In this document: one piece after another, positions 17,124 to 19,224 of the stretch
Layout: every line of letters starts with the position of its first letter
Position numbering within the stretch: position 1 is the first letter of the stretch
Position numbers and translations under genes: made by a program
Notes under the pieces: generated by a model
Seen by the model: only the letters and a program-made list of their open reading frames with translations
What the model was told of the DNA's origin: nothing
The model's database searches: none
Source of the DNA: Rhodobacteraceae bacterium Alg231-30
GTDB lineage: Bacteria; Pseudomonadota; Alphaproteobacteria; Rhodobacterales; Rhodobacteraceae
DNA length: 64,000 nucleotides
Reading direction: 5' to 3'
Assembly (NCBI GenBank): GCA_900143615.1
Contig: FREU01000001.1
Coordinates: forward strand, 272,767-336,766

Positions 17124-17335
17124 GGTGAGGTGAAAGGCTGCGAATCGCTTTGAAGAGATGACGCTACTTGCGTTTAAGTAAATTTATGCACAGTTTGGCA
17201 ACTATAGCGTGAACTGTTCTCCATTTCGAAACGAGCGGCGTGGCGACTCCAGGAATGCGGCTAAAACATGGCGCAGAGATTGCCAGGTGCGGTTCAATTT
17301 GAGATAGTGTTAAGAGAATTTTATAGGGGATTGAT

Positions 17336-17602
17336 ATGAAAATTTTATCAAAGCTCAAGTTTATGTCCGGATCAACGATTTTGCTGGCCCTGACTTCCAC
17401 AAGCGCAATGGCCCAAGACGTTGACGGCTGGTGGCGTAGGTGGAGAGATGGACGTAGAGGCAACGGTGGCGGAGGCGGCGATTATAATGCGGTCCCTGAA
17501 ATCGATGCGGGTGCAGGCTTGTTGGCGATCGCTGCCGTTCTTGCAACGCTTGCTTTGGTCTATGAATTGCGTCGCAGACATCGCGCCAAAAACGCGGACT
17601 GA
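17336..17602 (+). CDS. VPEID-CTERM sorting-domain protein (exosortase E substrate)
   Basis: An 88-residue precursor. Residues 1-26 form a Sec signal peptide ending AMA before Gln27. The mature N-terminal part is only about 26 residues, rich in Trp, Arg and Gly (GWWRRWRDGRRGNGGGGG). Residues 53-57 are VPEID, followed by a transmembrane segment (about 58-76) and the basic tail RRRHR, the tripartite layout of exosortase sorting signals. The gene runs tail-to-tail into the exosortase E gene, leaving 8 bp. AGGGG precedes the ATG. The protein is presumably exported, then cleaved and transferred at VPEID. What the tiny mature part does is unknown. Confidence 0.88.
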   Translation: MKILSKLKFMSGSTILLALTSTSAMAQDVDGWWRRWRDGRRGNGGGGGDYNAVPEIDAGAGLLAIAAVLATLALVYELRRRHRAKNAD

Positions 17603-17610
17603 TTTGATAG

Positions 17611-19200
17611 TTATATCAGCGCCCAACTGGCGCTGATAACAGCCCAAGCAGCAATGATTGCATTGGCGCTCGTATGTGCGACGACGGCAGACGCAAGCCC
17701 TCCCGCGCGCAGATAGATTCCCGCAAATACAATTCCGGATAGAGTGCCCGCGACGAAGCGGTCGTGCATAAGGCCGAAAAGCAGGCTGGAGACGGCTACG
17801 GCACAAATCAGTCCAGCGGTTTTGCCAAAGTTGAGGCGGCTTAATAGATAGCGGCGGAACAGAAGCTCTTCGATCAGTGGAACAAGCGCCACTGTTCCGA
17901 AAACTCTAAATACTATCCAACTAAAGTTCGCGGGGGCAGGAACGACGTCTGCTTGCGGTGCGGTGACGAGCCAGAGCACTGCCACAAGCAAGCCGGCACC
18001 TAGCGCCAAAGGCCAACCACGGTTCATCGTCGGCATAACCCACATGGCCAATATGGAGCGGCGAAAAAACAACAGAGTTGCAAACATGATCGCAACGCGG
18101 AATGGGTAGGCCGTTTCTGGAGCTGGCCAAAAGGCGGCGGTTACAACGCCTGACAGCATCATCACAATGAAGGGGACGATAAGTGCGATGACGTCATCTT
18201 CAGCCCATGACTGCGGGGTTGTTTGCGCCGTTTGTGGTGAAACGTGCAGCCAGCGCGCGCGATGGGCGATAACCACTACCCCAAGAGCGAGCGCGGTGAA
18301 AAGCAGCCATCCGGCGTAAGAGTGAAACCCATTTAACGCGTGCTCTGGTGAAACATGCGCACCAATCAGGATTAAAAGCGCGATCCGGGCGATATTGAAG
18401 AGCCAACTTACAAAGACGGCAAGAGGAAAGAGTACGAGCCAATATCTTTGCTGTCTGATGTCGCCGCGCATCAGAAACGCATAAATCCCCATAAAGATTG
18501 TAATTAAGGCGATGCCCTCAACTCCTGAGCACTGGCTTGCAACTTGCACATAAAAGTCGTCGACACCAATTACTTGAATTTCAGGCTCGACGCCCACATT
18601 TACGCCAAACGCGACAAGCACTACGTAGACTAAGAAGAAAGTTAGGTCCGAAAGGCTCGCCCAATTCCAGACCGGCTGAATCAGGTTGGCAAGATCGGGG
18701 ACCAGGAAGGCGCCGAAGATTGCCATCAGTAGCAGGTAGCCGTCCTGACGTAACCAGTCCCGCCAGACCCTTGTTGGGGTCACCCAGAATATGGCTCCAA
18801 ATGCTGCAAGGAGCCCGCCGAAAGCCATGAGGGTTAAAGCTGTCCCAAAGGACGCTGCCATCCCCGTAGGACCAAATGTCAAAAGTGGCGTGAATATGGT
18901 TGCAACACCAACAATGTGAACGACGCCCCAAAACGGGTGCCCCGGAGTTGAGGCCACAAGGCTTTGCAAATGGGTGTAGGCCTTCGGGCGTAGCCAAAAA
19001 AAGATCGCCAAAATAGTCATCACGGCCATGCCGCGCGCGGTCATGGAGCGCAAGGCGCGGCATGCGAGCCACATTTCGGTTTGCTGGCATTCAAAGGACG
19101 CCAGCAGCTGATAGGCAATGATGATCGACAGCAACTCGAAAAGAGCAATCGCTGCCATGAAAATAAGGCGCGTTGCGCGCAGATTGCCTGTCAATTGCAT
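17611..19200 (-). CDS. Exosortase E fused to a CPBP intramembrane protease (VPEID-CTERM system)
   Basis: A 529-residue polytopic inner-membrane protein with two catalytic modules. The exosortase module carries Cys224 (ASQCSGVEG), Arg272 (NIARIALL) and His293 (GFHSYAG), the exosortase triad. The C-terminal module carries Glu444-Glu445 (EELLFRR), His479 (FGLMHD), and His509 and Asn513 (VVAHTSANA), the motifs of CPBP/CAAX-type intramembrane proteases. The fusion matches the described exosortase E/protease class that pairs with VPEID-CTERM proteins, and one such protein is encoded convergently next door. GAGGAGC precedes the ATG at 19200. mipZ ends 24 bp upstream on the same strand, so the two may be co-transcribed. 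Confidence 0.92.
   Translation of the reverse strand: MQLTGNLRATRLIFMAAIALFELLSIIIAYQLLASFECQQTEMWLACRALRSMTARGMAVMTILAIFFWLRPKAYTHLQSLVASTPGHPFWGVVHIVGVATIFTPLLTFGPTGMAASFGTALTLMAFGGLLAAFGAIFWVTPTRVWRDWLRQDGYLLLMAIFGAFLVPDLANLIQPVWNWASLSDLTFFLVYVVLVAFGVNVGVEPEIQVIGVDDFYVQVASQCSGVEGIALITIFMGIYAFLMRGDIRQQRYWLVLFPLAVFVSWLFNIARIALLILIGAHVSPEHALNGFHSYAGWLLFTALALGVVVIAHRARWLHVSPQTAQTTPQSWAEDDVIALIVPFIVMMLSGVVTAAFWPAPETAYPFRVAIMFATLLFFRRSILAMWVMPTMNRGWPLALGAGLLVAVLWLVTAPQADVVPAPANFSWIVFRVFGTVALVPLIEELLFRRYLLSRLNFGKTAGLICAVAVSSLLFGLMHDRFVAGTLSGIVFAGIYLRAGGLASAVVAHTSANAIIAAWAVISASWALI
17614..17638. other. Hairpin at the convergent ends of the VPEID and exosortase genes
   Basis: TATCAGCGCC and GGCGCTGATA form a perfect 10-bp stem around CAACT. 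It begins just inside the exosortase stop codon and 12 bp beyond the VPEID gene stop, so both transcripts would carry it. No T-run is present on either strand. It may protect or separate the two converging messages. Confidence 0.55.
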
Positions 19201-19224
19201 CCGCAGCGCTCCTCACCGTCTGCC

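Follow-up and report, generated by a model that had tools for sequence, protein, structure and literature searches.

A two-gene exosortase E/VPEID-CTERM unit with one tiny target in Rhodobacterales and its possible role in peptide display

The window, which is the whole 64,000-nucleotide stretch of DNA analysed here, from the marine Rhodobacteraceae bacterium Alg231-30, contains a pair of genes flanked by marR and mipZ, the 3′ ends of which both point towards the pair. The plus-strand gene encodes an 88-residue protein with a C-terminal sorting signal, and the minus-strand gene, xrtE, encodes an exosortase fused to a CPBP intramembrane protease. The two genes lie tail-to-tail and, according to the open reading frames (ORFs) of the window, are separated by 8 bp (17603–17610). 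The locus has the following features.

17336–17602, plus strand: gene of the VPEID-CTERM substrate, 88 residues; TIGR04161, 45.2 bits, cut-off 33; sole copy in the genome
17336–17413, plus strand: putative signal peptide, 26 residues, assigned by eye with the cut after AMA
17414–17491, plus strand: passenger QDVDGWWRRWRDGRRGNGGGGGDYNA, 26 residues, a Trp/Arg-rich head followed by a Gly-rich tether
17492–17599, plus strand: sorting signal consisting of the VPEID motif, a hydrophobic helix and a basic tail; TIGR04161 covers residues 53–83
17611–19200, minus strand: xrtE, exosortase fused to a CPBP intramembrane protease, 529 residues; TIGR04162, 555.4 bits
18262–19080, minus strand: exosortase domain (Pfam match, PF09721) with catalytic Cys224, Arg272 and His293
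17656–17922, minus strand: CPBP (Rce1-like) protease domain (PF02517) with E444 E445 R449, H479, and H509 N513
17124–19224, strand not given: entire unit, bounded by the 3′ ends of marR and mipZ, 2.1 kb
17614–17638: hairpin with a 10-bp stem within the last codons of xrtE, directly past the substrate gene; z −2.65 and −3.40

A sequence-only reading of the window had placed the two ORFs, their tail-to-tail layout and the 8-bp gap as they are found here, and had assigned the pair to the exosortase E/VPEID-CTERM family. The assignment is borne out by both partners. XrtE scores 555.4 bits against the TIGR04162 cut-off of 150 and covers model positions 4–516 of 516, and the C-terminal TIGR04161 match of the substrate, also above its cut-off, covers model positions 1–31 of 31. 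The pair is therefore a member of a family that has already been catalogued (exosortase E/protease, VPEID-CTERM), and nothing was found that excludes its membership. Residues 41–313 of XrtE match PF09721 with 72.1 bits (cut-off 25.7), residues 427–515 match PF02517 with 53.4 bits (cut-off 22.4), and the C-terminal half just passes the cut-off of TIGR03008 (82.3 bits against 81.05). Among the named XrtE of the genome collection, those from Shimia are nearest, with 55–56% identity. The N-terminus of the substrate resembles a signal peptide, as judged by eye.

The genome, 4.54 Mb in 10 contigs, encodes one XrtE and one VPEID-CTERM protein above the cut-offs. The next best TIGR04161 match in it reaches 12.6 bits, and a wider sorting-tail model, built in the present analysis from 43 relatives and run on 13 genomes only, returned no convincing further target in this genome (next best E value 0.056); by both models, the substrate is the only one of its kind there. 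No other exosortase was found in the genome. The system is dedicated in the sense that the single target in the genome adjoins its enzyme. The single tiny substrate proposed in the sequence-only reading holds for this genome; such a substrate is usual but not universal, because XrtE is accompanied by six longer VPEV-type targets, mostly clustered near xrtE, in genome G379 and by three tiny targets of 55–57 residues in genome G440.

The pairing extends across the order, of which 390 genomes from 139 genera were sampled. XrtE is present in 44 of the genomes, in one copy each, and in 31 of the genera. Matches to TIGR04161, counted at E ≤ 0.001, were found in 43 genomes, one in each, and 34 of them exceed the curated cut-off. 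Such a match occurs in 41 of the 44 genomes with XrtE and in 2 of the 346 without it (Fisher test, 2e-49, with kinship between genomes ignored). The partners are within 200 bp of each other in 39 of the 41 pairs, and in the remaining two the substrate is on another contig. In G272 and G303, tiny substrates located just upstream of xrtE were missed by TIGR04161, recognized by eye and confirmed by the wider model. All 44 genomes with XrtE have a VPEID-like target, which is single in 43 of them, with distant extra targets possible because the wider model was run on 13 genomes only. The two genomes with a substrate and no XrtE are G178, in which no exosortase was found, and G353, which has an exosortase of another type. 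Across the class, 4 of 347 genomes encode XrtE: that of the window, two more from its family, and G440 from a different family. Locus L173 contains two VPEID-type ORFs in tandem, approximately 250 and 520 bases upstream of the xrtE match, with near-identical tails. One adjacent target per genome, as in the window, is the usual pattern of the system in the order, and this tight one-to-one pairing is a new result of the present analysis.

In a tree of the 44 XrtE sequences, the 25 convergent pairs constitute one clade (98/92). In 14 genomes outside this clade, the substrate gene is co-directional with xrtE, located just upstream of it, and its motif is usually VPEIS. The XrtE of G272, which has a long branch and a co-directional target, groups with the convergent side of the tree. 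A second set consists of named relatives, of which 52 of 72 loci were read; the others (L192–L211) have matches that start at query residue 338 at the least. A VPEID-like ORF is located nearby in 42 of the 52 loci, and in the other ten there is none within 3 kb. The arrangement is convergent in 30 of the 42, co-directional in 10, divergent in one (Citreimonas), and convergent with a VPEIS motif in one (Ruegeria spongiae).

The exosortase residues Cys224, Arg272 and His293 and the protease motifs EExxxR, FxxxH and HxxxN, which in the window are E444 E445…R449, F475…H479 and H509…N513, are where the sequence-only reading put them, and they are identical in all 44 XrtE. The invariance of both active sites indicates that selection keeps both halves of the enzyme. 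Cys47, which is outside the catalytic site, is also invariant in the 44 sequences. The enzyme of G123, which has one in-frame stop outside the catalytic residues, looks damaged or misassembled. The AlphaFold model of XrtE, calculated from an alignment of 43 rows from which G123 was left out, has a pLDDT of 90.5; a Foldseek comparison of the model with solved structures gave no match at E ≤ 0.001.

The single targets are composed of a signal peptide, a passenger of 7–46 residues, and the sorting signal, in which the Pro and Glu of the VPEID motif are invariant in all 43 aligned tails. Passengers were compared in 43 relatives after the signal peptides had been cut by eye, with the signal-less G123 and G140 (2 of the 25 convergent genomes) left out. 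The 23 convergent passengers are 10–46 residues long, with a median of 30. Trp is present in 20 of them and makes up 11.5% of their residues, whereas Gly, Ser, Thr, Pro and Asn together account for 61.5%. The aromatic residues are concentrated in the first half of the passenger (85 of 322 residues, versus 16 of 333 in the second half), and none of 5000 within-passenger shuffles was as extreme; since the passengers are related by descent, these composition counts are not independent. Cysteines come in twos, with two in 10 of the 43 passengers and none in the other 33. Lys is nearly absent from the passengers, with four among 884 residues, all in G288, versus 33 Arg; its scarcity might stop the cargo from serving as an amine acceptor. 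The design of a Trp-rich head on a Gly/Ser/Thr tether, recognized in the present analysis, recurs in most passengers of the window's lineage.

Of the 30 convergent named loci, 11 have no signal peptide yet keep the Trp-rich head, as judged by eye. The proteins of these 11 loci (L145, L148, L150, L152, L154–L157, L160, L169 and L185) have approximately 50–60 residues and start with Met followed by the Trp-rich head, and the same organization was recognized by eye in G123 and G140. The main argument for the head as the functional part of the protein is that it is retained in forms without a signal peptide. The substrate of G123 was considered as a decayed form because of its missing signal peptide, and this was rejected, because signal-less forms recur. 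Among six genomes of the genus (15 pairs), identity averages 0.86 in the sorting tail, against 0.66 in XrtE and 0.64 in the passenger, and is lowest in the signal peptide (0.45). The passengers of the closest pair differ by nine synonymous and two nonsynonymous codon changes. From these small counts, the passenger seems to be more than a free spacer. Swapping of substrate alleles was considered for a close pair in which its synonymous change seemed to exceed that of XrtE; it was rejected on the basis of a divergence profile, in which a stretch of low divergence extends through xrtE and mipZ.

It is quite possible, at somewhat less than an even chance, that the pair is a self-contained cassette for peptide display, by which a Trp-rich peptide is shown on the cell envelope. 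The tiny precursor would be exported and would remain in the inner membrane through the helix at its C-terminus, with the basic tail inside. The exosortase half would then attack the VPEID site through Cys224, assisted by Arg272 and His293, as the two protein families suggest. The peptide, bound as an acyl-enzyme, may be transferred to an amine of a lipid or of some other envelope molecule, the acceptor being a guess. The product would be a tethered peptide of approximately 26–31 residues, with the Trp/Arg-rich head at the free end and the Gly-rich segment as a tether. The fused CPBP protease would most likely clear the leftover helix, as the sequence-only reading had proposed, or help to open the substrate, with the order of its action being a guess, and the head would probably contact surfaces, matrix or other membranes, a role that is likewise guessed. 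This display reading is favored by the strict pairing, the window's genome having a single exosortase and a single target, and by the invariant catalytic residues of both halves. It is also favored by the Trp-containing head on a flexible tether, which is kept in the absence of a signal peptide, by the occurrence of Cys in twos, and by the within-genus identity of the passenger, which is similar to that of XrtE and above that of the signal peptide. A further argument is the model proposed for archaeosortase A, in which an acyl-enzyme is resolved by a lipid amine, as given in the available text of PMC7157517. Several observations count against display: the six longer targets of G379, the substrate of G178 that is kept with no exosortase found, and the 20 passengers from outside the convergent group, mainly those of the sister lineage, which have 7–20 residues (median 11) and no Trp. 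The three convergent passengers without Trp also count against it, as do several named relatives with passengers rich in Arg, His or Gly/Ser instead, the single Cys in the passenger of one named relative (L153, Pseudodonghicola), and the six synonymous and seven nonsynonymous codon differences between the passengers of the next close pair.

The peptide could alternatively be released instead of anchored, as a short secreted signal or an antibacterial peptide cut by two proteases joined in one enzyme. Such a system would resemble that of Staphylococcus, in which AgrB and MroQ act on AgrD. The passengers are short and variable, some with a pair of Cys, and the CPBP half of XrtE has a weak MroQ-like match, at 25.2 bits far below the cut-off of 270. 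However, no gene for a receptor, immunity protein or regulator stays with the pair across the neighbourhoods, the exosortase half belongs to the transferring type, and the heads are near-identical between close species, with no sign of signal specificity. A released peptide is considered unlikely.

Another possibility is that the tiny protein is an accessory, such as an anchor, assembly or retention factor, for a different surface structure, and the sister lineage offers a candidate. Its co-directional substrate genes adjoin a gene for a large protein with SdrD_B repeats and no evident signal peptide (by eye), in four of four loci scanned. An example of this adhesin family (L064:3940–6777, plus strand) has SdrD_B repeats, a C-terminal thioester-type domain, and CxC near its end. 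The last approximately 215 residues have an invariant Cys, the motif Q..[IV]W, a distal QP[FL] and, close to the terminus, CxC; all 16 sequences compared agree in this. The AlphaFold model of the domain has a pLDDT of 91.2, and its six best Foldseek matches are four chains named thioester domain and two chains of the streptococcal adhesin FNE (TM-score 0.50–0.54); three of the six have E ≤ 0.001. Pfam TED is over its cut-off in one of four scanned adhesins, just under it in another, and not listed in two. The domain thus has the motifs and the predicted fold of a thioester domain (TED), with a putative thioester bond. The Gln of Q..[IV]W was considered for the bond and rejected, because the thioester Gln is the distal one according to the available text of PMC4450167; here it is probably that of QP[FL]. 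In the Gram-positive proteins covered by that text, the thioester domain nearly always sits at the N-terminus and LPXTG at the opposite end, whereas the domain of the Rhodobacterales adhesin is C-terminal.

The distribution of the adhesin both favors and disfavors an accessory role. Its profile was found in 26 of the 390 genomes. These include all 18 with a sister-type target found by the model (14 co-directional, two unlinked and two lacking XrtE) and 8 of the 347 others, but not one of the 25 convergent genomes. In named sister-type loci, the adhesin adjoins the substrate in 10 of 11, with L173 as the exception. It remains with the substrate even if XrtE is flipped, as in Ruegeria, unlinked, as in G311 and G262, or not found, as in G178 and G353. 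By contrast, the profile was not found in G272 and G303, which have co-directional targets identified by eye, nor in G379 or the window's own genome; for the window's lineage, an accessory role would call for a structure encoded at an unlinked site. Furthermore, no VPEID-like ORF was found downstream of the adhesin in the five of the eight other genomes that were read, or downstream of the second copy in G308. In one lineage the adhesin family accompanies the substrate gene, a link that is new in the present analysis, and elsewhere it is free-standing. An accessory role for the tiny protein is likewise regarded as improbable, to a similar degree as release.

It is more doubtful still, and rather remote, that the CPBP half does the cutting, as myxosortase does on MYXO-CTERM, and that the exosortase half has another task, for example joining. 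By itself, a CPBP protease is able to cleave a sorting tag at the C-terminus (PMC11980579, as far as its available text goes), and the CPBP motifs are invariant in all 44 XrtE; however, the exosortase triad is equally invariant, and the sorting motif is of the exosortase type (Pro-Glu) and lacks the Cys of MYXO-CTERM. The idea that a larger ancestral cargo has been reduced to the present substrate, now nearly neutral, might be suggested by the short and variable ORF and by the longer targets still present in G379, but it is very hard to reconcile with the strict co-occurrence, the invariant Pro-Glu, the recurring layout, and the excess of synonymous differences in the closest pair.

The display reading may be extended to the whole family, although this wider form is rather doubtful. 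The XrtE/VPEID-CTERM system would then be a device for display and not for protein sorting: a two-gene cassette of Rhodobacterales by which one peptide of 7–46 residues is hung on the cell envelope, often as a flexible tether with a head that is rich in Trp or looped by a disulfide. In the sister lineage, display would be coupled to a Gram-negative thioester adhesin in a three-gene attachment operon. If this operon works as it looks, it would join thioester-based covalent adhesion, which has been described for Gram-positives, to an exosortase system. The window's pair, with one exosortase and one 88-residue substrate, the mature form of which would have approximately 26–31 residues, is near the smallest test case for attachment by an exosortase; its product should be directly readable by mass spectrometry, and the two halves of the enzyme can be inactivated independently.

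Several known systems resemble the pair in part. MrtJ/JDVT-CTERM is likewise a two-gene unit of a CPBP protease and a dedicated single target (PMC11980579, available text); unlike XrtE, MrtJ and the myxosortase MrtX have no exosortase half, and the MrtJ model gives 29.5 bits on XrtE, below its cut-off of 75. Rhombosortase/GlyGly-CTERM also has a single target adjoining the enzyme, for which the accessible part of PMC3237569 uses the term dedicated system, but the enzyme is an unrelated rhomboid serine protease. The catalytic module of archaeosortase A is related to that of XrtE; however, archaeosortase A/PGF-CTERM has large S-layer cargo and archaeal lipids, and the available text of PMC7157517 mentions no fused protease. 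The targets of PEP-CTERM/EpsH share the tripartite signal and are divergent between their ends (PMC12188702, available text), but they are usually many, larger, and accompanied by polysaccharide genes, whereas the window has one tiny target. Among 12 flanking proteins and 20 other large ORFs scanned, which include small flanking genes and 27 of the window's 32 ORFs of at least 300 residues, none was named as a polysaccharide gene, in agreement with the earlier view of a self-contained pair. In the open literature searched there was no mention of VPEID-CTERM; searches for VPEID, exosortase E and XrtE gave no work on the system by title, and the best matches for exosortases in Rhodobacterales or Roseobacter contained nothing on it. 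Nor did the titles of the best literature matches include thioester or SdrD B-like adhesins in Rhodobacteraceae or Paracoccus.

For relatives of XrtE, the statement about polysaccharide genes has to be qualified. All 12 plasmid records with a match are already annotated as xrtE, exosortase E/protease, VPEID-CTERM system, and in two of them the enzyme lies among polysaccharide genes. On a Leisingera plasmid, the substrate is two genes downstream of xrtE and adjoins a sugar transferase and a tyrosine autokinase. On a Rhodovulum plasmid, the neighbours of xrtE include a flippase and a glycosyltransferase; 10 kb of sequence from this locus contained no VPEID-like ORF.

Neighbouring genes were called by codon scoring, as earlier longest-ORF calls included likely antisense ORFs (clusters 8 and 11). 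MipZ, the gene of which shares the strand of xrtE and lies 24 bp upstream of it, was considered as a partner and rejected; it adjoins xrtE in 9 of the 44 XrtE genomes. Nine genomes carry the pair at the marR/mipZ site, and other groups have other neighbours. Because the same neighbours persist without the pair, and other lineages have other neighbours, marR and mipZ mark a shared site and are not partners. The strong hairpin at 17614–17638 is a possible two-way stop for both genes; it has no T run and was not called by the terminator scan, and the promoter and terminator scans gave few more hits than expected by chance (4 versus a mean of 2.8, and 7 versus 4.5). In the same-genus genome G196, which lacks the pair, the 3′ ends of marR and mipZ are approximately 20 bp apart; the pair is a clean 2.1-kb unit that is missing at the same site. 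In G255, also of the same genus and without the pair, the slot is occupied by a cyclase-like gene, as judged by eye (L221:6235–7543), and the site seems to take different inserts.
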